From positions 1-20,494 of IMG/VR virus record IMGVR_UViG_3300042891_000503: 20,494 nt of DNA. The stretch is one strand, 5' to 3'. Position 1 is the first letter of the stretch. Each line of letters opens with the position of its first letter. This DNA is from a virus. The position numbers were made by a program, and so were the translations under genes. This document shows positions 4,836 to 18,071 of the stretch, one piece after another. The notes under the pieces were generated by a model, which was not told the origin of the DNA, ran no database searches, and saw only the letters and a list, made by a program, of their open reading frames with translations.

Positions 4836-5507
4836 GTGGAGATTATTAGTTCTGATATAGAAACGCTTTTACCTTTTCCAAATAACCCAAGAAGAGGTAA
4901 TGTTAATAAACTTAAAGAATCTTTAAATGCTAACGGACAATACAAGCCGATTGTTATTCAGGCATCAACTAGATACATACTTGCCGGTAACCATCTATGG
5001 CAAGCAGCAAAAGAATTAGGTTGGACAAGAGTTGATACTGTTGAGGTAGATGTTAATAACACCCAAGCGAAGAAGATAGTAGCCAGCGATAATAGATTAG
5101 GCGAACTTGGAACTTATGATGAGAAAGAATTATTAGATTTATTACAAGATATTAGTCTAGAGGGAACTGGCTACGACACCCAAGATATAGATGATTTACT
5201 TGCGTTAATTGAAGAACAGTCAATAACTCCTTCTTACGAAGAGACTGGAAGTATGGTTGAGGGTGTTAGTGGAGGCGGTCAATTAGCACAAGAAGGAGTT
5301 AATAGAAGACCGACTATGTCTGAAAGAGCATCTCACTATGCCGAAAGAACAGTCAGGCTGTTAATGTGTGAGTTTCCTAACGACCAATATATTTGGATTC
5401 AAGACAGGCTAACTGAACTTAGAGTAAAGTATAATGTAGATAGTAATGGGGACGCCATTATTAGAGCAGTTGCGGAAGCGACTGGAACAGAGGCACCAAG
5501 TGATTAA
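4836..5507 (+). CDS. ParB-like (ParB/Srx fold) protein
   Basis: A 223-residue protein starting at GTG 4836 with AAGAAGGAG 5 bases upstream. The N-terminal ~100 residues form a ParB/sulfiredoxin-type domain: PNNPRRGNV (15-23), NGQYKPIVI (33-41), AGNHLWQAAKELG (50-62) and DNRLGELGTYDEKEL (85-99). Residues 157-215 form a separate helical domain. Phage proteins of this type are usually not plasmid-partition factors; ParB/Srx domains bind nucleotide and occur with DNA methyltransferases and with TET/JBP-type modification genes. It directly precedes such a dioxygenase and overlaps it, so it may guide or regulate modification or act as a nicking enzyme (inference). Confidence 0.85.
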   Translation: MEIISSDIETLLPFPNNPRRGNVNKLKESLNANGQYKPIVIQASTRYILAGNHLWQAAKELGWTRVDTVEVDVNNTQAKKIVASDNRLGELGTYDEKELLDLLQDISLEGTGYDTQDIDDLLALIEEQSITPSYEETGSMVEGVSGGGQLAQEGVNRRPTMSERASHYAERTVRLLMCEFPNDQYIWIQDRLTELRVKYNVDSNGDAIIRAVAEATGTEAPSD

Positions 5508-6366
5508 AGATTTAGATGTAATACCAGTCAAAAGAGTTTTTGATAGAAGTAAAACTAAGGAACTTAAAGGTGTAGATGTTCCAGAGTTAGAAGCAAATAT
5601 CAAAGAGGCTGGAATCTATGTTGATGCAGACACCAATGAACCTTTCTTAGTTTACATGCCTCTACCAGAAGCAGTAATTCCAGAACTTAGAAAAGCAGTT
5701 CGTTCAATTAAGTATTCTTCATCAGGTGTAACTAGACAATCAACTGGTGTAGAAAATCATTCAAGAACTTTCGGTATGGCGCCACGCAAACCATTTCAAA
5801 CTAGAGAAGCATGCCGACCAACAGCATTATCTTATGACCAACCCGAAGAGCATGATGTTCTAACTAGAACAGCAGATGTATTAGCAGATATTATTAAAGA
5901 GTTAATTCCTGATGTATACAATGCAGATGTAACCGAAACAGCAGCAGTAGCAGATGAGTGGAGATTAAGCGAGCGAAGTCTTTGGACTAGCGGAGTTATT
6001 AATAAAACCTCAACCCTTCCATACCACTTTGACGGCAACAACTTTGATATGTGGTCTGCTATGCCAGTAATTAGAAGAGGTACTCGTGGTGGTTACCTAA
6101 GTATGCCCGAATACGATTTAGTTATTGAGTGCCGAGATGGTTGGTGTTTATTCTTTCCAGGATACAGATACCTTCACGGAGTTACTCCGATAGCACATGT
6201 TCAGAAAGATTCTTACCGCTACACAGTTGTTTATTACTGCTTAAGAGGCATGAAAGACTGCTTCTCATTCGCAGTTGAACAGAAAGAAGCGAGGAAACGG
6301 AGAACAGAACGAGAAACAGGACTGGCTTCTGCTCTCAAAGGTGATACTCCGTTTAAGGTTGGTTGA
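5500..6366 (+). CDS. TET/JBP-type 2OG-Fe(II) dioxygenase (DNA base hydroxylase)
   Basis: A 289-residue protein from GTG 5500 (AGAGG 6 bases upstream, overlap of 8 with ParB; an upstream ATG 5446 would overlap by 62). The C-terminal half has the double-stranded beta-helix motifs of phage TET/JBP enzymes: HFD (H176, D178), GGYLSMPEYDLVIECRDG, LFFPGYRYLHGVTPI (H226 as third iron ligand) and YRYTVVYYCLRGM with R240 for 2-oxoglutarate. The Lys/Arg-rich tail may bind DNA. This family oxidises the methyl group of 5-methylcytosine or thymine in DNA to hydroxymethyl. The next gene is a glycosyltransferase of the type linked to these enzymes. No cytosine C5-methyltransferase is seen here, so the base is open (thymine, or 5mC made elsewhere). 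Confidence 0.85.
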   Translation: MIKDLDVIPVKRVFDRSKTKELKGVDVPELEANIKEAGIYVDADTNEPFLVYMPLPEAVIPELRKAVRSIKYSSSGVTRQSTGVENHSRTFGMAPRKPFQTREACRPTALSYDQPEEHDVLTRTADVLADIIKELIPDVYNADVTETAAVADEWRLSERSLWTSGVINKTSTLPYHFDGNNFDMWSAMPVIRRGTRGGYLSMPEYDLVIECRDGWCLFFPGYRYLHGVTPIAHVQKDSYRYTVVYYCLRGMKDCFSFAVEQKEARKRRTERETGLASALKGDTPFKVG

Positions 6367-7166
6367 AGTATCAAGTAGTAGTTCCTTCTTACCAGCGAGC
6401 AGAGATTTGCCGAGATCAAACTCTAGCAACTTTAGAACGCCTGAAAGTAGATAAAGATAAGGTTCATGTCTTTGTCGCTAATGAAGAGCAAGAAGAACTC
6501 TATCGGTCTGTATTAAAAGACGATTACCGCATTGTTGTTGGCGTGCGTGGTATATCTACCCAAAGAAAGTTTTACCACAACTGGTTTCCTGAAAATGAAA
6601 GACTATTAAGCATTGATGATGATATGTCTGATTTACTAGAACTTGGAGATAAGAAACTAGTACCAACACGGTACCAACTCGACGAGATAGCAGAGATAGG
6701 TTTCTCAACAGCAGAAGAACAGGGAGCAAGACAGTGGGGTATTAACCCAACCATGAACCACTTCTTCTTAAAAGACCATATTTCAGTAGGACTTCGATAT
6801 ATATGTGCTAACTTCATGGGAACTTATGCTAAAGACTGGATATTCTGCGATCCTGAAAGACGCATGACCCCAACAGGAGAAGACCACCATTCAACTCTTA
6901 GAGGATTTACTAGATATGGTTGCGTTGTTCGCCTAGAATTCTTATGCCCAAAGACCAAGTATTTTGCTTCAGGCGGTATAGATGCTTGCGTAACAGAAGA
7001 TGGAGATGTGAGAAAAGATAGACATGCTTCAGAATTGCGTTGGGTACAAGAAAGATATCCAGACCTATCTTCAATACAGATTAAAGCAGGAGGAGTAGTG
7101 AATCTTCGCTTGAAGCCGATTACTTTAGGAAGAAAAGAGAGACCATTACATGGACTTGCAAACTAG
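6363..7166 (+). CDS. GT-A glycosyltransferase, TET/JBP-associated type (TAGT-like)
   Basis: A 267-residue protein starting at TTG 6363 within the dioxygenase stop (TTGA), with AAGG just upstream. It begins with a Rossmann-like strand typical of GT-A enzymes (YQVVVPSYQRAE), has VRGISTQRKFYHNWFPENER (62-81) and the metal-binding SIDDDM motif (D85-D87), then GEDHHSTLRGF (172-182), likely the catalytic acidic region. It would transfer a sugar from an NDP-sugar to an acceptor. Its position directly after a TET/JBP dioxygenase, and its similarity to the family described as TET/JBP-associated glycosyltransferases in phages, suggest the acceptor is hydroxymethylated DNA base. A sugar other than glucose cannot be excluded. 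Confidence 0.8.
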   Translation: MKYQVVVPSYQRAEICRDQTLATLERLKVDKDKVHVFVANEEQEELYRSVLKDDYRIVVGVRGISTQRKFYHNWFPENERLLSIDDDMSDLLELGDKKLVPTRYQLDEIAEIGFSTAEEQGARQWGINPTMNHFFLKDHISVGLRYICANFMGTYAKDWIFCDPERRMTPTGEDHHSTLRGFTRYGCVVRLEFLCPKTKYFASGGIDACVTEDGDVRKDRHASELRWVQERYPDLSSIQIKAGGVVNLRLKPITLGRKERPLHGLAN

Positions 7167-7767
7167 AGAAGGAACAACCGATGCTATGACATTGGGCGAA
7201 ATAAATGCGTATAAAACCTGCCCAATACCTGCTGGTTGTAAAGTGTTAGATGTTGGTGGACACATAGGTTCTTTTACTAATTGGGCATTACTACAAGGTG
7301 CTGGTTTCGTAGTTGCCTATGAACCAGAACCAGACAATTTCCGTATGCTTACTCTCAACACAGAAGGCAAACCAGTTGAAATCCATAACAAAGCATTAAC
7401 CCGTGATGGCAGAGATGTAATGCTTAATGTTAAAACTTCTGGACATACGGGCGGACATAGTATTCTTTATGATGGCCCAACTAGAAACCATATAATAGTT
7501 CCGAGCGATTCATTTGCTGAGGTAGTGGCTAGAGTTCAACCCAATGTAGTAAAGATTGACTGCGAGGGCGCAGAATACGAATTCAACATACCCGAAACAC
7601 TTCCTGATTCGGTACAATATGTAACAATGGAAATTCACTTAAACAGGAAAGCCTTAAGAGAGATAGAGGCACCCAAACTGATTCAAGGATTCGAGAAGTG
7701 GACAGCAATAAAGCCACCTAAGATTACGCCCAAAGGCTGGCAGACTATTGCGGTATGGGCAAGATAA
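7150..7767 (+). CDS. FkbM-family SAM-dependent methyltransferase
   Basis: A 205-residue methyltransferase: SAM-binding motif VLDVGGHIGSFT (32-43), acidic loop AYEPEPDNF (56-64) and the FkbM hallmark VVKIDCEGAEYE (133-144). FkbM enzymes O-methylate hydroxyls on sugars and secondary metabolites. ATG 7150 overlaps the glycosyltransferase gene by 17 bases and the stop overlaps the ATG of terS, so it is coupled on both sides. The context suggests it methylates the sugar that the preceding enzyme puts on DNA; that is inference. An alternative is modification of a phage or host glycan. Confidence 0.85.
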   Translation: MDLQTREGTTDAMTLGEINAYKTCPIPAGCKVLDVGGHIGSFTNWALLQGAGFVVAYEPEPDNFRMLTLNTEGKPVEIHNKALTRDGRDVMLNVKTSGHTGGHSILYDGPTRNHIIVPSDSFAEVVARVQPNVVKIDCEGAEYEFNIPETLPDSVQYVTMEIHLNRKALREIEAPKLIQGFEKWTAIKPPKITPKGWQTIAVWAR

Positions 7768-8258
7768 TGACTGATAACGATTCTGTTACAAAGCGAGGAA
7801 GAAAGACCAAACTAGATGATGCTCGAAGGGATAAGTTAATCAAAGCAATAAGAGCAGGAAACGACAAGAAAGTTGCCTGCTCCTTTGCTGGTATATCTGA
7901 AGCAACTCTTTATCGCTGGTTAGAACAGTCAAGAGCCAAGAATGCTAGTGAGGAATTACAAGAATTTCGAGAGTCGTTTGAGCGTAGCGAAGCAGAAGCA
8001 GAAACAATGAATGTTGGCAGAATTGTTCAAGCAGCACAAAATGGAAGATGGCAAGCAGCAGCATGGTGGCTAGAAAGAAAACACCCTGAACGCTGGGCAC
8101 AACACACTAAGATTAAAGCAGAACTTTCTGGACCTGACGGAGCGCCAATAACAATTAGCGTTGAAGAGGCTAGGAAAGTAGTATTAGAAATGCTTAATGA
8201 AGGGGGAGATGATGGGCTTATCATTGATGGAGAAAGTCCAGAAGTTATCCAAGAGTGA
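7767..8258 (+). CDS. terS: Terminase small subunit
   Basis: A 163-residue DNA-binding protein. The N-terminal part has a basic start (KRGRKTKLDDARRDKLIKA) and a helix-turn-helix, KKVACSFAGISEATLYRWLE, typical of small terminase subunits and Hin-like recombinase HTH domains. The middle (QAAQNGRWQAAAWWLERKHPERW) is the helical oligomerisation region seen in many actinophage TerS proteins. It recognises phage DNA for packaging. ATG 7767 shares a base with the FkbM stop (TAATG); an in-frame ATG at 7755 is the alternative. The large subunit overlaps its 3' end. Confidence 0.85.
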   Translation: MTDNDSVTKRGRKTKLDDARRDKLIKAIRAGNDKKVACSFAGISEATLYRWLEQSRAKNASEELQEFRESFERSEAEAETMNVGRIVQAAQNGRWQAAAWWLERKHPERWAQHTKIKAELSGPDGAPITISVEEARKVVLEMLNEGGDDGLIIDGESPEVIQE

Positions 8259-9594
8259 GAAAGAAAAGTGGCTCTCGGAACTTCCTGAACCAGTATTAAC
8301 AGAACTCTATAAATCTCCTTGGTGGTTTATTGGTAGACCCGAGCAACAAGAACCTGAAGGTGATTGGTTTATCTGGTTAATTCTTTCTGGTCGTGGTTGG
8401 GGTAAGACAAGAACTGGAGCAGAGTGGCTTGCTAAGAAAGTTATAGATAACCCTAAGACTAAAGATAATGTTTCCACCCAATGGGCTATTGTCGCACCAA
8501 CCTTCAAAGACGCAAAGAGTATCTGCGTAGAAGGACCTAGCGGATTATTGAAAGCACTCCAACACCAAGGATTACAGAACGAAAAAGATTATGTCTATAA
8601 CAAATCATCACACAAAATAGATATGGCTAATGGGGCAAGAATACATACCTTTGGTGCAGACTCTCCAGATTCTGGTCGTGGTCTTAACTTATCTGGTGCT
8701 TGGCTAGACGAGATAGCATCATGGCAATATCCATACGAATCATGGACAGAAGGATTAGCACCAGCATTGCGTATTGGTGAAAGACCAAGAGTTGTTGTTA
8801 CTACTACACCCAAGCCAATTAAGTTAATCCGTGAGTGGGTTAGCAGAACAGATAACTCAATACATTTAACAAGAGGTAGCACTTTTGATAATGCTAAGAA
8901 CCTTTCAGGGAACGCATTAAAGGAGTTACGTAACCGATATGAGGGCACAAGAACAGGGCGACAGGAACTTTACGGCGAAATACTTGAACAGGCTGAGGGA
9001 GCCTTGTGGATAAGAAACTGGATTGAAGATACAAGAATTAGTATTGATAACTTACCTAAACTAACAAGAGTGGTAGTAGGTATAGACCCTGCCGTAACTA
9101 GTAGTGAGAACTCTGATGAAACAGGAATTATTACTTGTGGTCTTGGCGAAGATAAACACTTCTATGTATTGGCTGATGATACTTTGAGAGCAACACCTAA
9201 CGAGTGGGGTAAGCGATCACTTCAAGCATATACAAGATGGAGAGCAGACAGATTAGTTGCTGAAGTAAATAATGGTGGAGATATGGTTGCTATGGTTATT
9301 CAACAAGTAGATAGAAATGCACCAGTCAAGAAAGTTCATGCGACACGCAATAAATCCACAAGAGCAGAACCGATATCAGCACTCTATGAACAAGGTAAGG
9401 TTCACCACGTAGGAGGCTTTCCACAGTTAGAAGACCAAATGGTTCTTTGGACACCGGACTCTAAGAAATCACCAGATAGACTAGATGCTCTAGTTTGGGC
9501 ACTTACAGAACTAAGCGGTAGTTACCAAACACTAACAGGAACAGTTCCACTATCACTTACTCAAATTAACGACTGGTCTATACCAAGGATGTGA
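8212..9594 (+). CDS. terL: Terminase large subunit (packaging ATPase-nuclease)
   Basis: The packaging motor, about 460 residues. Numbered from the in-frame ATG 8197: Walker A SGRGWGKT (64-71), Walker B LSGAWLDEIASW with D171/E172, coupling motif TTTPKP (202-207), then an RNase H-like nuclease with D297 (GIDPAV), E356 (VAEVNNGGD) and D430 (SPDRLDALVW). All catalytic residues are present. It cuts concatemeric DNA and pumps it into the prohead. The start is uncertain among ATG 8197, 8209 and 8212: GGGGGAG lies just before the last two, and 8212 is chosen. It overlaps terS by about 47 bases. Portal does not follow directly; 5 kb of cargo intervenes. Confidence 0.95.
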   Translation: MGLSLMEKVQKLSKSEKEKWLSELPEPVLTELYKSPWWFIGRPEQQEPEGDWFIWLILSGRGWGKTRTGAEWLAKKVIDNPKTKDNVSTQWAIVAPTFKDAKSICVEGPSGLLKALQHQGLQNEKDYVYNKSSHKIDMANGARIHTFGADSPDSGRGLNLSGAWLDEIASWQYPYESWTEGLAPALRIGERPRVVVTTTPKPIKLIREWVSRTDNSIHLTRGSTFDNAKNLSGNALKELRNRYEGTRTGRQELYGEILEQAEGALWIRNWIEDTRISIDNLPKLTRVVVGIDPAVTSSENSDETGIITCGLGEDKHFYVLADDTLRATPNEWGKRSLQAYTRWRADRLVAEVNNGGDMVAMVIQQVDRNAPVKKVHATRNKSTRAEPISALYEQGKVHHVGGFPQLEDQMVLWTPDSKKSPDRLDALVWALTELSGSYQTLTGTVPLSLTQINDWSIPRM

Positions 9595-9773: not shown

Positions 9774-10068
9774 TGACCCAAGAGATATTGCTGCTTATGC
9801 TGCTAGGTTAGTAACTGGAGATAGACAAGAAGATTACGGTCACCCTCTTGATGACTTCACTAGAGCAGGAAAGATATGGGAGGCGATATTAGGAGTTCCA
9901 GTTACGGCTGAGCAAGTAGCCTTATGTATGGTGGGAATTAAAATAAGTCGCCAAACCAATGCGCCTAAAGTAGATAATATCGTTGATGGTATAGGTTACT
10001 TTCTTACCTTGGCTATGGTTCAAGAAGAGCGAGCCGAGAGGGACCGTAATGAGAATACTAGCATTTAA
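9766..10068 (+). CDS. DUF6378-like phage protein
   Basis: A 100-residue protein from GTG 9766, which has GGAGG 8 bases upstream; TTG 9751 is in frame but lies on that ribosome site. The pattern [61 protein letters not shown] matches a common phage family labelled DUF6378. The all-helical layout with conserved Asp/Glu resembles MazG-type nucleotide pyrophosphohydrolases, so a role in nucleotide metabolism is possible but unproven. It overlaps both neighbours (8 and 20 bases). Confidence 0.75.
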
Positions 10069-11698
10069 TATAGCCCATGATAGTTCTGTATGTGTATTAA
10101 ATGATGGCGAAATTGAGTTTTTTTGTAAGGAAGAACGAATCTCTAGAAAAAAGAGAGACAAGCACCCCTTCAAATCTTTAGAATTATTGAAAGCAAATTT
10201 AGCAGGACCTTTAGACCATGCGCTCTATACAGTACCAGATAACAATGAACTCGGTATTGAAACTGTTTATAGCCGTTATATAGAAAAAACTTTTAATGTG
10301 CCTTTAGAGAATTTCTCGGCACTAACTCATCATCAATCACATGCCAACCTTGCCTACTTTAATAGCGGGTTTGAAAGTTGCTTAGTTTTTGTTATTGACC
10401 GAAATGGCTCTATAATTTTTGCTGAGGATAAAGAAGTTGCTAGAGAGTCAGAGTCTGTATATTTATGCGATAAAAATAACTTTCTAAAACCTTTACAGAA
10501 AAACTTTTGGCTTATGCCTGATATGTCTTCTAAACGGCTAAAAGTTCTAAAGTCTTTAGAAGTTCTTTATCTTGACACAAAAGTTACTCTCAATAATTTT
10601 TTGAGCATTGTTAAAGTCTATGAGTCGGCTACAACTATGATCGGGCAAAACCCTTTAGAAAATGGAAAAACTATGGGGCTTTCCTCTTATGGAACTTACA
10701 ACGATAACTATAAACTCTTTCATAAGTCCGTTGCAAGGGCTGAATTATTTACTGATTCTTACCCTGTTTGCTTCTTTGAAAAAGAAGATAAAATAACTTC
10801 TGATATAGATAATCAAAACTACTTAGAGTACGCAAACTTGGCTAAGCAAGTTCAAATCGATACCCAAGAAGCAGTTTTAGAGTTGATTAAATATCATGTA
10901 GAGAAAACCAAAGTCCGTAATGTTTGCCTCGTTGGTGGTTATGGATTAAATGTAGTCGCTAATAACTTCTATCTTAAAAACATGAAAGATGTTACTTTCT
11001 ATTTCGAACCAGTAGCCGATGATACAGGTGTGCCTATTGGTGCCGCTATGATGAAATATGTTATGGAAACAGGCAAGCGACCTAAAAAATTAAAGGATAA
11101 CTTTTTTCATTTTTATGACCTAGACCTTAGAACTTTTGGTGAAAGAGTGCCAAATATGGAACACTTAGTAGACTTGTTAATCAATCAAAAGAGTTTAGCC
11201 ATTTTCGATGGCAGTCCTGAGGCTGGTCCAAGGGCGTTAGGTCATAGGTCAATTCTTTTCGACCCAAGAAATAAGGACTGTAAGGCAATCGTCAATAAAA
11301 TTAAAAAAAGGGAATGGTATAGACCTTTTGCTGGAGTTATATTAGAGTCAGAATTCGATAAGTATTTCGTTACTTTAGGTCTTTCTTCATCAGAATATAT
11401 GACAGTAAACTTTGATGCAAAAGAGTCGGCAATAAGCCTCGTGCCCGGAATTATTCATGTAGATAATACAAGCAGAATACAAACAGTCAAAGAAGGCTTT
11501 CTATTCGACCTACTTCAAGGCTTTTATGAAAAAACAGGGTGTCCTATGTTACTTAATACAAGTTTCAATCTTGCTGGAGAGCCTTTAGTTCAAACTAAAG
11601 ACGAGGCAATACAAACCTTGAGCGAAAGTACCCTAGATGCGGTATATTTTGTTGATACGAAAACTATAGTAGAGAGAGATACAAATGAAAGTTTTTAA
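10049..11698 (+). CDS. Carbamoyltransferase, NodU/TobZ/CmcH family
   Basis: A full-length 549-residue two-domain enzyme. The Kae1-like N-terminal domain shows AHDSS (9-13), the metal-binding HHQSHA (94-99), VGGYGLN (295-301) and [13 protein letters not shown] (321-333). The YrdC-like C-terminal domain shows [14 protein letters not shown] (388-401), [11 protein letters not shown] (421-431) and [14 protein letters not shown] (501-514). These enzymes use carbamoyl phosphate and ATP to make carbamoyl-adenylate and carbamoylate a hydroxyl on a sugar or antibiotic. Phage members have been shown to carbamoylate 5-hydroxymethylcytosine in DNA, so DNA is a credible target given the dioxygenase upstream; a glycan or a small metabolite is the alternative. 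ATG 10049 follows GAGAGGGA. Confidence 0.9.
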
Positions 11699-11816
11699 GG
11701 GTGTGACAGATAACTGGGGGATAGCAATTCAATTCCATAGTTGGGATAAAAGTCTTACTATTCAATTCCTGAGGTTTTATATTATTTTTGTGGCACATAA
11801 ATGGTGGTCGAATTAA
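11685..11816 (+). CDS. 43-aa hypothetical protein between carbamoyltransferase and oxygenase
   Basis: ATG 11685 lies behind AGAGAGAGA and overlaps the end of the carbamoyltransferase gene by 14 bases. The 43-codon frame ends in TAA at 11814-11816, immediately before the ATG of the next gene, so it fills the apparent gap exactly. It starts [20 protein letters not shown] and ends in an aromatic/basic stretch (FLRFYIIFVAHKWW) that could be amphipathic or membrane-seeking. No family recognised; the packing suggests translational coupling. Confidence 0.65.
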   Translation: MKVFKGVTDNWGIAIQFHSWDKSLTIQFLRFYIIFVAHKWWSN

Positions 11817-12377
11817 ATGAGAATTATTGAAAATGTATTACCTGAACAACTTTGTTACGAAATTGGTGGTTTGGGATACAGATTAACAAGAGGGTATGAC
11901 TTAACAGAAGAAGAACTCAATATACAGTCATGGACTAATTTCCGTTGGCACTCAGACCTAAATCAAGAGTCTACCCCTGTTCTATGTTACTCAATGCCGA
12001 AATCCTTAAGCAAACAGATAATTCCTTTCTTAAAAAAGAACGACTTATTTTCAAATGAAACCGAAGAAAGTCTCCGCGAGGAAATGAAGTTTATGATTTA
12101 TGTTTGGACGAAAGGCTCATGGATTAACTGGCACGGTGACGCTCATGCGAAACAAGCAGTTACCATATATTTGAATAAAGACTGGCATTACAACGATGGG
12201 GGACTTTTTATTTGGCAAGATGAGACCACAAGCGAACTAAAAGTTGTTGAACCAAAGTTTAATACTTTAGTTTACAATGAGGGGTCAATGATGCACGGAA
12301 CCACACCTGTTACTTCTAGTACAAGTTTAAGAATTACAGTTCAAGGTTTTATGCTGCGCTCAGACGCGCAAACTTAG
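11817..12377 (+). CDS. 2OG-Fe(II) oxygenase, prolyl-hydroxylase-like
   Basis: A 186-residue protein whose second half is a P4H-type oxygenase core: WHGDAHAKQAVTIYLNKDW with iron ligands H106 and D108, GGLFIWQDE, MMHGTTPV with H160 and SLRITVQGF with R172 for 2-oxoglutarate. It is unlike the TET/JBP enzyme at 5500-6366 in motifs and length. Such small oxygenases are common in aquatic phages, with targets proposed among proteins, DNA bases or metabolites. It directly follows the 43-aa gene in the carbamoyltransferase operon. Its stop codon overlaps the stop of the convergent gene on the other strand. Confidence 0.8.
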   Translation: MRIIENVLPEQLCYEIGGLGYRLTRGYDLTEEELNIQSWTNFRWHSDLNQESTPVLCYSMPKSLSKQIIPFLKKNDLFSNETEESLREEMKFMIYVWTKGSWINWHGDAHAKQAVTIYLNKDWHYNDGGLFIWQDETTSELKVVEPKFNTLVYNEGSMMHGTTPVTSSTSLRITVQGFMLRSDAQT

Positions 12378-12565
12378 TCATCAAAAGGTCTTTCTTTGAA
12401 TATTACATTGGTGTCGTTCTGTTCTAAGAGTAAATCAAACAGTTCATCAGGGTCTAGTTCTTTTACTCTAGAACCATTGAAATAGGTATATACAGAAAAC
12501 ATAAAAGCAGCAGTGGCAAAAGCAAAAGCAAAGAAACTTAAAATTAAAGCAACCCAAGAAATCAT
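12374..12565 (-). CDS. 63-aa single-pass membrane protein
   Basis: A 63-residue protein with a hydrophobic segment at about 4-28 (WVALILSFFAFAFATAAFMF) followed by an acidic, probably cytoplasmic tail (VKELDPDELFDLLLEQND). Its ATG shares a base with the stop of the SpeD-like gene (TAATG), so it is the last gene of a four-gene - strand operon. Its stop overlaps that of the oxygenase on the + strand. Family not recognised; a holin or membrane partner is possible but unsupported. Confidence 0.6.
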   Translation of the reverse strand: MISWVALILSFFAFAFATAAFMFSVYTYFNGSRVKELDPDELFDLLLEQNDTNVIFKERPFDD

Positions 12566-12945
12566 TATTCAAACCCATGTTCTTCAGTGATGAAACCATT
12601 TTCTCTATTTAATAGTATGTAATCAAATGCAGTAATAGCAAACTTTGACTTAATAGTATCTAAGACTGCTTTCTGATCTAACTGCCCACAGGTGTAAAGA
12701 TCAAATTGCAATAAAGCAGGAGAAGGTTCGTCCCAAATATGAAAGGCAATATGGCTAGTTTCAATCATAACTATGGCAGTTAGTCCTCGATTGCCCTCTA
12801 CATCTACGTAAGAGGCAAAAGGACCTTTAATAATCTTCATGTCTATTGCTTTGACTAAGTCAGTTAAGAACTCTATCGCCTCATCGTCAGACTTCATGGG
12901 GCTATTGACTTTAGCATTAACTAATAAGTGTTTATGAAATATCAT
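12565..12945 (-). CDS. speD: SpeD-like pyruvoyl-dependent decarboxylase (AdoMetDC family)
   Basis: A 126-residue protein from an ATG that overlaps the upstream gene's stop (ATGA); a longer in-frame start at 12978 would overlap more. It aligns with class 1 prokaryotic S-adenosylmethionine decarboxylases: MIFHKHLLVNA at the start, then IETSHIAFHIWDEPSPALLQ and FDLYTCG, giving S64, H65, H69 and C86. The family self-cleaves before this Ser to make a pyruvoyl cofactor and supplies the aminopropyl donor for spermidine. The usual Glu before the Ser is Thr here. SpeD homologs in phages and bacteria can have changed substrate (ornithine or arginine), so the substrate is not assigned. Confidence 0.75.
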   Translation of the reverse strand: MIFHKHLLVNAKVNSPMKSDDEAIEFLTDLVKAIDMKIIKGPFASYVDVEGNRGLTAIVMIETSHIAFHIWDEPSPALLQFDLYTCGQLDQKAVLDTIKSKFAITAFDYILLNRENGFITEEHGFE

Positions 12946-13610
12946 TTCGCGTCTACCTGAAATTCCTTTTTCTTCCAAATCTTTTTCTTATACCAATTAG
13001 GGATTTGAGCGCGTTCTGCCACTTTCTCGCTCCAAAAATCAGCGTCATGTTTTCCTAGGGAAGCCTCCCAATCTTCTCTAGCCAAAGGTATTAGTTGATA
13101 CATAGGCGTTCCTTTCGGTATTACCCCTGTAAAACCTTTTTTAATATAAAAAGGCAAGTTGCCAAATGGTACATGCCTAAACTCATCATAATCAATTATT
13201 CCTGAGAAAGTGTAAAAAGGTAAGTCAATTCGATTTAGCGGGTGAGTAACGAGTCCTGAAAAACCTGACGGGAAAATTGGAGACCATATTGAGTTCCATA
13301 AGAACTGATAATGTAAATAGCCATCTATCTCTGGAAGGTGATTCGGCTCGCGAAAATCTACCATCTTAATTAAATGAGGTGCTGAGATTTGAAAGCCGTC
13401 TGCTGTTTCGTCAACACTAATATCAGTCCAAGTTCTTTGAATATACCCATGCGTTAAAGAGTCTAAAAAAGGTGAACAGGCTTTTATATTAGGCTCAGCG
13501 CGATTAGGTGCTATGGTTTTATACCAATCAGGAATACAATACTTACTTGGTACTGGAGCCTCTGTAATTTCTTGTACTTGCTCACTTCCTGGTATAAATT
13601 GAATTTTCAT
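12942..13610 (-). CDS. 222-aa conserved phage protein of unknown function
   Basis: A 222-residue protein with no motif that fixes a reaction. Notable stretches: PVPSKYCIPDWYKTIAPN (20-37), KACSPFLDSLTHGYIQRTW (43-61) and PFGNLPFYIKKGFTGVIPKG (148-167). Trp, Pro and Phe are abundant and the C-terminus is Lys-rich (WYKKKIWKKKEF). It resembles a protein recurring in marine T4-like and other aquatic phages with no assigned activity (recalled, not searched). It starts directly after the SNase stop (TAAATG) and overlaps SpeD, so the four genes form one transcript. Confidence 0.7.
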   Translation of the reverse strand: MKIQFIPGSEQVQEITEAPVPSKYCIPDWYKTIAPNRAEPNIKACSPFLDSLTHGYIQRTWTDISVDETADGFQISAPHLIKMVDFREPNHLPEIDGYLHYQFLWNSIWSPIFPSGFSGLVTHPLNRIDLPFYTFSGIIDYDEFRHVPFGNLPFYIKKGFTGVIPKGTPMYQLIPLAREDWEASLGKHDADFWSEKVAERAQIPNWYKKKIWKKKEFQVDAK

Positions 13611-16139: not shown

Positions 16140-18071
16140 ATGCCTTTAGTCATAAAGGCTAGAAAAAGAAACGACCCAGTTCTTCGTAGCCCAACCGCAA
16201 AATTAAATAAGTTCGAACAAGAAATCTTTGATATTTACTCTAAGGCTTTATCCTCTATGCCTAAAGATTTAGATAACGAAAAAGTTATTAGAGCAGTTAG
16301 GCGAGCAATAGAATCGAGAAGTCCAAATGCTGGTGCAGTTGCTTTTGAGTGGGGAGACTTTGTTTCTTCGCTAGATGGCACAGTTCCTAAGTTAGCGCAA
16401 CAACTTGCTGCTTCCGCAAATATAAGTGCTGCTGCTTTGCCTAAGAATATTAGATTTGATAGTTCTTTTACTGCCCAAGACCCAAGAGCAATAGCATGGG
16501 CACAGCAGAGAGCAGGAGCAAGAATATTAGGAATTACTCAAGAAACTCAGAAAGCCGTTGCTGAAACTATTGCTAGAAGTTTAAGTACACAAATAAATAG
16601 AGAAGAAGTAATAAATAATATTACTCAAATAGTTGGCTTAGATTCCAGACAAGCAAAAGCACTGGGTAACTTTTATGAAAAGAACTTACTTAAGTTAATT
16701 GAGCAAGGTGAAACATACGAGAAGGCAGTAAAAATAGTAACTAAACTTAGCAAAGAATATCGTGAAAGATTACTTATCCAGAGGGCTACTCGTATTGCCA
16801 GAACAGAAACTATTGCTGCTGCTAATGCTGGTCGCATGCTTTCTTGGGCGGAAGCAGATCAATTAGGATTACTTCCAGCAGGAAGCCAGAAGAGGTGGAA
16901 AACAGCAGCAGATGAAAGAACATGTCCAGTTTGCGCACCATTGAATAATGTAACAGTAGATTGGGAAGGTGTTTTTTCTACTGGCGATGTCATGCCACCC
17001 AATCACCCAAATTGTAGATGTACCGCAGTTATTGTTCCAGCAGAGCCAACCTTTGATAATAGTGTTGAGAAAAGATATTATAGATTTGCTGACGGAGAAA
17101 AAACTTGGCGAAACTATGATTACAAGTGGCGCAAAATAGCCAATGAAATGAAAGATAGAATAGGCAAGTGCCAGCGTTGTGGAAGTAAATCAGACCTAAC
17201 AGTAGATCATAAGAAAAGATTAAAAGATGGTGGTGCTAAATATGACAGGAAGAACCTAAGAGTCTTATGCCGTTCATGTAATGGAAAACTTGCTAGATTA
17301 GGAACTAAACTTAGGAAGTCAGATAACTCTTGGTTATTTGCTAAGCATGCTCCTGGACAACACAATCAGCAAAATCACGCAGGAGGCAGAAGGAGTGGTA
17401 GTGGGTCATACGAGGCTTCAGCCAGTGCTTTGGCTTCTTTTCAGAATGGCTCTTGGGATAAAGATGATGTAAGTTTAGAAGATACGAAAAAAATAACAGT
17501 CGCTTACGATAATAAATATTCTGTAAAAAATGAGGAAAATGATAATTCAGAATTCCAAGTTGAAGATTATGCAACTGCTGGCTATCAGGGCATTAATGCT
17601 GTGGCAAGAGGTAGCCAAAAAAGCGATGACTTCATGCAAAATAAGATAAGTGTTTTGGATAGAACTATTGAAGAAAGTCCAGATGCTTTCGGTGATAAAA
17701 CTCTTTATAGAGTTGCTTCCGATAGGCTTATCACAGATTTGAAACCCGGAGATACTTTTATAGACAAAGGATTCTTAAGTACAACAAGGAAAAATGTTGT
17801 AACAAATAAGTCTGCTAGAAAACAATTAGGCAACTTATCACCTACTGATGATACTGTAACTGTAATTCTTCCAAGTCCAAGCAAAACAGGTAAAGGGCTT
17901 GCTGTTGATTTACTCTTAACAAGCAGGGGGAGAAGTGGGCGAGATGAGTTTTGGGGTAAAGAAAAAGAAGTCTTACTTCCTCGTGAAACTCCACTACTAT
18001 TCTTAGGAATAAGCACGACTACGGATACAGAAGGTAAACCAGTAGCAGTTTTTCAGAGAATGGATAAATGA
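16140..18071 (+). CDS. MuF minor head protein fused to HNH nuclease and ADP-ribosyltransferase
   Basis: A 643-residue uninterrupted fusion. (1) MuF/SPP1 gp7-type head morphogenesis domain to about 300, with RIARTETIAAANAGR (218-232), CPVC (262-265) and PPNHPNCRC (286-294). (2) HNH nuclease at about 325-390: KCQRCG (343-348), VDHKKRLKDGG (355-365, H357), NLRVLCRSCNGKL. (3) Linker with a His-rich motif KHAPGQHNQQNHAGGRR (402-418). (4) C-terminal ADP-ribosyltransferase at about 470-640: TLYR (R524), GFLSTT (544-549) and KEKE (E608-x-E610), the R-S-ExE triad. MuF proteins sit in the head near the portal, so the enzymes may be ejected with DNA. Such C-terminal cargo resembles MuF polymorphic toxins. 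Confidence 0.88.
   Translation: MPLVIKARKRNDPVLRSPTAKLNKFEQEIFDIYSKALSSMPKDLDNEKVIRAVRRAIESRSPNAGAVAFEWGDFVSSLDGTVPKLAQQLAASANISAAALPKNIRFDSSFTAQDPRAIAWAQQRAGARILGITQETQKAVAETIARSLSTQINREEVINNITQIVGLDSRQAKALGNFYEKNLLKLIEQGETYEKAVKIVTKLSKEYRERLLIQRATRIARTETIAAANAGRMLSWAEADQLGLLPAGSQKRWKTAADERTCPVCAPLNNVTVDWEGVFSTGDVMPPNHPNCRCTAVIVPAEPTFDNSVEKRYYRFADGEKTWRNYDYKWRKIANEMKDRIGKCQRCGSKSDLTVDHKKRLKDGGAKYDRKNLRVLCRSCNGKLARLGTKLRKSDNSWLFAKHAPGQHNQQNHAGGRRSGSGSYEASASALASFQNGSWDKDDVSLEDTKKITVAYDNKYSVKNEENDNSEFQVEDYATAGYQGINAVARGSQKSDDFMQNKISVLDRTIEESPDAFGDKTLYRVASDRLITDLKPGDTFIDKGFLSTTRKNVVTNKSARKQLGNLSPTDDTVTVILPSPSKTGKGLAVDLLLTSRGRSGRDEFWGKEKEVLLPRETPLLFLGISTTTDTEGKPVAVFQRMDK

Follow-up and report, generated by a model that had tools for sequence, protein, structure and literature searches.

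A ParB–TET module for predicted DNA base hypermodification, with an exchangeable enzyme slot beside the terminase genes, in a putative actinobacterial phage

Introduction

In the kinetoplastid base J pathway, JBP1/2 hydroxylates thymine and the J-glucosyltransferase then makes glycosylated 5-hydroxymethyluracil (5hmU). Phages with thymidine hypermodification make 5hmU before polymerisation by a thymidylate-synthase-type enzyme, and decorate it with amino acids or amines. Here we describe a four-gene module in the IMG/VR virus record IMGVR_UViG_3300042891_000503 (20,494 bases; hereafter the window), in which genes for a ParB-like protein, a TET/JBP-type dioxygenase (TET), a TET-associated glycosyltransferase (TAGT) and an FkbM-family methyltransferase run into the terminase genes. 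With a probability that we place a little above even, these genes would form a compact modular base-hypermodification unit of a freshwater actinobacterial tailed phage, converting thymine to glycosyl-5hmU and then to a derivative with an O-methylated sugar.

Like base J synthesis, the module would combine TET/JBP hydroxylation of thymine with a glycosyltransferase; base J differs in being eukaryotic and glucosylated and in having no known O-methylation, and the phage base and sugar are predicted from genes. Phage thymidine hypermodification (Lee et al. 2018, 2022, as cited in PMC11955845) shares the presumed 5hmU intermediate, and its enzymes occupy the same genomic slot in relatives of the window, whereas in the window a TET and a sugar are predicted. 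The T-even TAGT (PF20691) belongs to the same glycosyltransferase family but takes as substrate a cytosine base that already carries glucose (PMC13216743), without a TET.

The ParB–TET modules of actinophages, in Mycobacterium phages Acadian and Nigel, Arthrobacter phage Altadena, Gordonia phage CloverMinnie and Rhodococcus phage Tonitrus, have ParB followed by a TET that is 42–47% identical to that of the window; most adjoin terminase, and Acadian and Altadena carry a TAGT too. They differ in their second-step genes, which are a PIG-L deacetylase, or an amino acid:DNA transferase (ADDT) and a kinase, or nothing, with FkbM in the slot of none of those examined. The authors of the Tonitrus study interpret its locus as encoding thymidine hypermodification, including a 5-hmU DNA kinase (PMC11955845). 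An earlier note on the window, made from its sequence, held that TET/JBP together with TAGT is known in phages, and Acadian and Altadena, both isolates, agree with this. The same note overstated the novelty for this type of host, as isolates infecting Mycobacterium and Arthrobacter already have TET and TAGT, with or without a deacetylase, and unrelated contigs from phages also contain TET-TAGT-FkbM. Among the open-access papers found, none combines FkbM with TET or TAGT, and an earlier mention elsewhere is possible. What is added here is the FkbM combination, its recurrence in several lineages and the exchange of slot contents with thymine-specific enzymes.

Results

Four overlapping genes upstream of terminase

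All four genes lie on the plus strand and encode the ParB-like (ParB_N) protein (4836..5507; Pfam ParB_N, 3.6e-6; PHROG 723, 1.5e-43), the TET, a predicted thymine 5-methyl hydroxylase dependent on Fe(II) and 2-oxoglutarate (5500..6366; Pfam Tet_JBP, 1.4e-9), the TAGT (6363..7166; Pfam TAGT, 1.7e-8) and the FkbM methyltransferase, which is dependent on S-adenosylmethionine (SAM) and whose predicted role is O-methylation of the sugar that TAGT attaches (7150..7767; Pfam Methyltransf_21, 1.1e-8). They are followed on the same strand by the small terminase subunit (7755..8258; PHROG 4102, 9.8e-34), which marks the downstream edge of the exchangeable slot, and by the large subunit (8197..9594; Pfam Terminase_6N, 1.5e-22, and Terminase_6C, 8.2e-17). 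Successive genes overlap by 8 bases between ParB and TET (given a GTG start of the TET at 5500), and at 6363-6366 (TET/TAGT), 7150-7166 (TAGT/FkbM) and 7755-7767 (FkbM/small terminase subunit). The ParB_N, Tet_JBP, TAGT and FkbM matches all exceed the curated Pfam cut-offs. The arrangement described by the earlier note, four overlapping genes running into terminase, is thus borne out by coordinates and profiles, and the four-gene observation is confirmed far beyond chance. Pairwise dN/dS values for TET, TAGT and FkbM are ~0.04-0.12 in pairs with unsaturated dS, and the module is under purifying selection.

ParB is the constant first gene of the module, found upstream of TET in nearly all relatives whose contig extends that far, and perhaps serves in targeting or in another enzymatic step. 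The TET probably starts at GTG 5500, with a longer start at ATG 5446 possible; the former fits the residue numbering used by the earlier note (H176, D178, H226, R240), and the latter would give H194, D196, H244 and R258. The Tet_JBP match scores 37.8 bits against a curated cut-off of 34.9, and the HxD...H iron site and the 2-oxoglutarate-binding arginine do not vary among 21 aligned sequences (homologues 52–88% identical). In a Foldseek search with the AlphaFold model (pLDDT 83), the top 26 PDB matches are CcTet, NgTET1, TET2 and CMD1, and AlkB/FTO rank later; a sequence search of solved structures returned NgTET1 alone, with a marginal E-value. The dN/dS of this gene is ~0.06-0.11 (unsaturated dS). 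The dioxygenase with intact catalytic residues that the earlier note had recognised is accordingly placed by profile, alignment and modelled fold within the TET/JBP family, and oxidation of a 5-methylpyrimidine in DNA is its predicted activity.

The TAGT profile (PF20691) matches at 35.1 bits against a cut-off of 27.5, and the DDD motif at residues 85-87 is invariant across a 13-sequence alignment. Its AlphaFold model (pLDDT 90) adopts a GT-A fold and weakly resembles many glycosyltransferases, above all AvpGT, whose solved structure contains the nucleoside Ara-A. A sequence search of solved structures gave no informative match; dN/dS is 0.04-0.12 (unsaturated dS). The protein is a TAGT family member, as had been read from its GT-A features and DDD motif, with glycosylation of a hydroxymethyl base as its predicted activity. 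Families, motifs, folds and the slot partners described below support the hypermodification pathway proposed in the earlier note, and we hold it very probable that TET and TAGT modify DNA bases by hydroxylation and glycosylation.

FkbM keeps company with TAGT

The FkbM assignment, also made from the letters at the outset, stands on a PF05050 (Methyltransf_21) match of 35.9 bits against a cut-off of 22.7 and on the SAM-binding motif, with LD(V/I)GGHIG and KIDCEGAEY kept in three close relatives; searched by sequence against solved structures, the protein gave uninformative matches to SAKe designs over short stretches. Using a profile built from the window FkbM and its nearest outside relatives, we located 17 contigs in which FkbM and TAGT lie no more than a few genes apart; 13 of these contigs fall outside the lineage of the window. 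The lower-scoring FkbM matches were without TAGT association. The nearest relatives beyond the lineage, L204 and L205 (contigs and loci are given by L numbers; 111–125 bits), each overlap or abut a TAGT gene, and within the window lineage FkbM occurs in the slot solely together with TAGT. Four of the TAGT–FkbM contigs (L204, L222, L240 and L241) have alongside a HMUDK_hel-type gene (helical domain of 5-hmdU DNA kinase) and a thymidylate-synthase-type gene, Pfam-confirmed for L204 and assigned by similarity to L204 in the others; no TET was seen within the stretch examined in these four. Tailoring of a sugar has a precedent in the PIG-L deacetylase directly behind TAGT in phages Acadian and Altadena.

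Because the subfamily recurs beside TAGT, including beside 5hmU-kinase and thymidylate-synthase-type genes, O-methylation of the sugar added by TAGT is the likeliest third step, as the earlier note had suggested, and from this association we regard it as reasonably likely that FkbM acts on that sugar.

Three other arrangements were seen around these genes. A contig represented by L217 and L195 carries ParB, a TAGT-like gene and TET, plus an opposite-strand FkbM of the TAGT-associated subfamily. In L311:2079-2996, and also in L312 and L314, a gene of ~300 amino acids between TET and TAGT has by eye a sulfotransferase-like motif, such that a sulfated sugar is conceivable. A different FkbM (L032:2505-3191) lies near tail-fibre-like genes in the relative L014, beside a weak glycoside-phosphorylase-like protein, and probably has another function.

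A fixed frame with an exchangeable slot

The order ParB, TET, slot, small and large terminase subunits is common to 21 loci, as far as their contigs extend, and in every complete relative within the clade of the window the slot is followed by the small subunit. This shared order, together with the gene overlaps, upholds the coupling of the module to terminase. Within the clade the slot holds TAGT alone, TAGT and FkbM (the window, L006, L008 and L009), two TAGT-like genes (L021 and L024), a GT4-like gene (L015), or TAGT and a GT4-like gene (L023).

A wider scan took the best 80 of 429 TET relatives and, with isolates included, gave a census of 90 TET loci. The slot contains a glycosyltransferase in 26 and a glycosyltransferase with FkbM in 4; an ADDT cassette, with a P-loop kinase in most complete cassettes, fills it in 39, a kinase alone in 6, a pair of 308 amino acid and HAD-like 148 amino acid proteins in 12, and other genes in 3. 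By Pfam, ADDT (PF18724) and P-loop nucleotide kinase 3 (PF18751) occur in Tonitrus, CloverMinnie and several IMG/VR contigs, while Terij has the kinase and LilMcDreamy an ADDT domain. On the TET tree, well-supported branches force at least 10 changes for the glycosyltransferase label and at least 6 for the ADDT label, and these repeated changes imply that finishing enzymes were swapped while ParB and TET stayed. The ~90 related loci thus show a fixed ParB-TET-[slot]-terminase frame with an exchangeable slot. In the pair-type loci (L059:8894-10263 and 11 similar loci), the 308 amino acid protein has no Pfam or PHROG match, and the pair possibly represents an unknown finishing chemistry on 5hmU.

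Thymine as the favoured base

The earlier note had left open whether thymine or 5-methylcytosine (5mC) is oxidised, having seen no C5-cytosine methyltransferase. That observation holds clade-wide, as 19 contigs of the clade to which the window belongs, one of them 55.7 kb long and carrying the window's genes at 100% identity, gave no PF00145 match; the base, however, need not stay open. Neither a thymidylate-synthase-type hydroxymethylase nor a P-loop kinase was found in 10 contigs of the clade, which leaves TET as the one recognised enzyme that could supply a 5-hydroxymethyl base. In 45 of the 90 loci, relatives of this TET are paired with ADDT and/or a P-loop kinase; as both act in 5hmU chemistry, the most economical interpretation is that the dioxygenase converts thymine to 5hmU, and thymine is probably the target base. 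The window itself is not a thymidine hypermodification locus of the described type, because a 5hmU kinase with ADDT or pyrophosphorylase is absent from its slot by Pfam.

Proposed pathway and alternative explanations

In the proposed pathway, the TET/JBP dioxygenase would hydroxylate the 5-methyl group of thymine in replicated phage DNA to give 5hmU, TAGT would use a host sugar nucleotide to glycosylate the hydroxymethyl group, giving a base J-like glycosyl-5hmU, and FkbM would O-methylate the sugar so added. ParB would be the constant partner, perhaps for targeting; relatives would retain ParB and TET but exchange the enzymes of the second and third steps within the slot. The likely purpose would be protection before packaging against host restriction and other nucleases, which fits the place of the module directly upstream of terminase.

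Several points weigh against this pathway. The thymine assignment leans on the enzymes that accompany TET in relatives, and the slot of the window itself has no thymine-specific enzyme; the 55.7 kb contig, in which no terminal repeat was found, may for that reason lack a few genes; the FkbM tree has long branches and does not resolve the deep branching order; and C5-methyltransferase is present in 4 of 50 other TET records. The last of these would suit a cytosine version, in which TET oxidises 5mC produced by a methyltransferase of the host, or by an unseen one of the phage, and TAGT and FkbM then act on 5-hydroxymethylcytosine (5hmC). The best structural matches of the dioxygenase, which are mostly 5mC dioxygenases, point the same way, as does the T-even TAGT, which adds glucose to glucosyl-5hmC (PMC13390438; PMC13216743), so that membership of the TAGT family alone does not fix the base. 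The four records with C5-methyltransferase, however, carry ADDT or 308 amino acid protein slots and not glycosyltransferases, and given also the clade-wide absence of C5-methyltransferase and the ADDT and kinase partners in half of the loci, we consider the cytosine version unlikely.

The marine arrangement suggests that a sugar may not always be the substrate of FkbM, and this too counts against the pathway as drawn. In MED4-184-like marine cyanophages, FkbM lies directly upstream of TET in 69 of 81 loci (isolate MED4-184 plus IMG/VR contigs, many near-identical and some cut at a contig edge), mostly as ParB-FkbM-TET-terminase without a recognised glycosyltransferase, and in 5 loci a TAGT or TAGT-like gene replaces FkbM at the same place. 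We therefore keep as a rival that FkbM O-methylates the 5-hydroxymethyl group directly to 5-methoxymethyluracil, in parallel to or instead of glycosylation by TAGT. Among 29 records searched (27 marine and two TAGT–FkbM contigs), TAGT (PF20691) was found in those two alone and GT2 (PF00535) in none; yet this search of whole records failed to pick up the TAGT genes in marine contigs L198 and L199 that hmmscan/phmmer recognise (direct hmmscan for L198), and the marine absence of TAGT is consequently provisional. Moreover, the marine FkbM is distant from that of the window (at most ~43 bits; ~30% identity over 137 residues), while the pairing of FkbM with TAGT throughout the window lineage and in L204 and L205 argues for the sugar, so that direct methylation in the window seems as improbable as the cytosine version. 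A much more remote explanation, to which we give very little weight, is that glycans of the virion or the host are the substrates of the glycosyltransferase and FkbM, whose genes would just happen to be co-transcribed with TET. Both families are common in glycan pathways, and the FkbM gene of L032 near tail-fibre-like genes would suit it, but DNA-modification enzymes occupy the TET–terminase slot in relatives, and in contigs without TET, TAGT is accompanied by genes with a 5hmU-kinase domain and by thymidylate-synthase-type genes.

The triplet ParB-FkbM-TET of Prochlorococcus phage MED4-184 lies at L111:3629-5753, where the annotations 'DNA methylase' (ParB) and 'queuine tRNA-ribosyltransferase' (TET) are judged wrong from the profiles.

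Host and neighbouring genes

The window encodes a WhiB gene, and both TET relatives from cellular genomes, an Actinomycetota metagenome-assembled genome and a Brevibacterium genome, are actinobacterial. These agree with the actinobacterial host suggested earlier, although short of proof. GC content per 2 kb block is about 35-44%, and from this and the kind of relatives, not from the record, we infer a freshwater origin of the phage. No tRNA genes were found in the window, and no DNA-level matches to it among phage records.

Downstream, a cassette at 10049-13610 comprises a Nol-like carbamoyltransferase (10049-11698), a second 2-oxoglutarate/Fe(II) oxygenase, an AdoMet decarboxylase (SpeD) and a 222 amino acid protein. 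The closest relatives of the carbamoyltransferase are in cyanophages, and its similarity to a proven 5hmC carbamoyltransferase (PMC8670742) is weak and piecewise rather than close. As a part of the pathway the cassette was rejected because of this weak similarity and because it is missing from L006, L008 and L009; with L006 98–99% identical to the window over TET-TAGT-FkbM, we treat it as separate cargo. Further on (16140-18071), a MuF-like head protein is fused to an HNH domain, and its long C-terminal part resembles by eye an ADP-ribosyltransferase domain.

Discussion

The above comparison settles the main ambiguity of the first reading in favour of thymine and predicts definite DNA nucleosides. 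Direct tests are within reach through isolates in laboratory-amenable hosts, namely the M. smegmatis phages Nigel and Acadian and the Arthrobacter phage Altadena. Through the exchangeable slot, nature provides several kinds of second-step enzyme (glycosyltransferases, deacetylase, methyltransferase and amino acid transferase) for a single intermediate, a resource for DNA labelling and for the study of restriction systems facing phage DNA. More tentatively, at somewhat less than even probability, virion DNA of this phage may hold an O-methylated glycosyl-5hmU, a prokaryotic relative of base J; ParB–TET may be a general chassis for swapped chemistries, in which the marine frame with FkbM only would yield 5-methoxymethyluracil.

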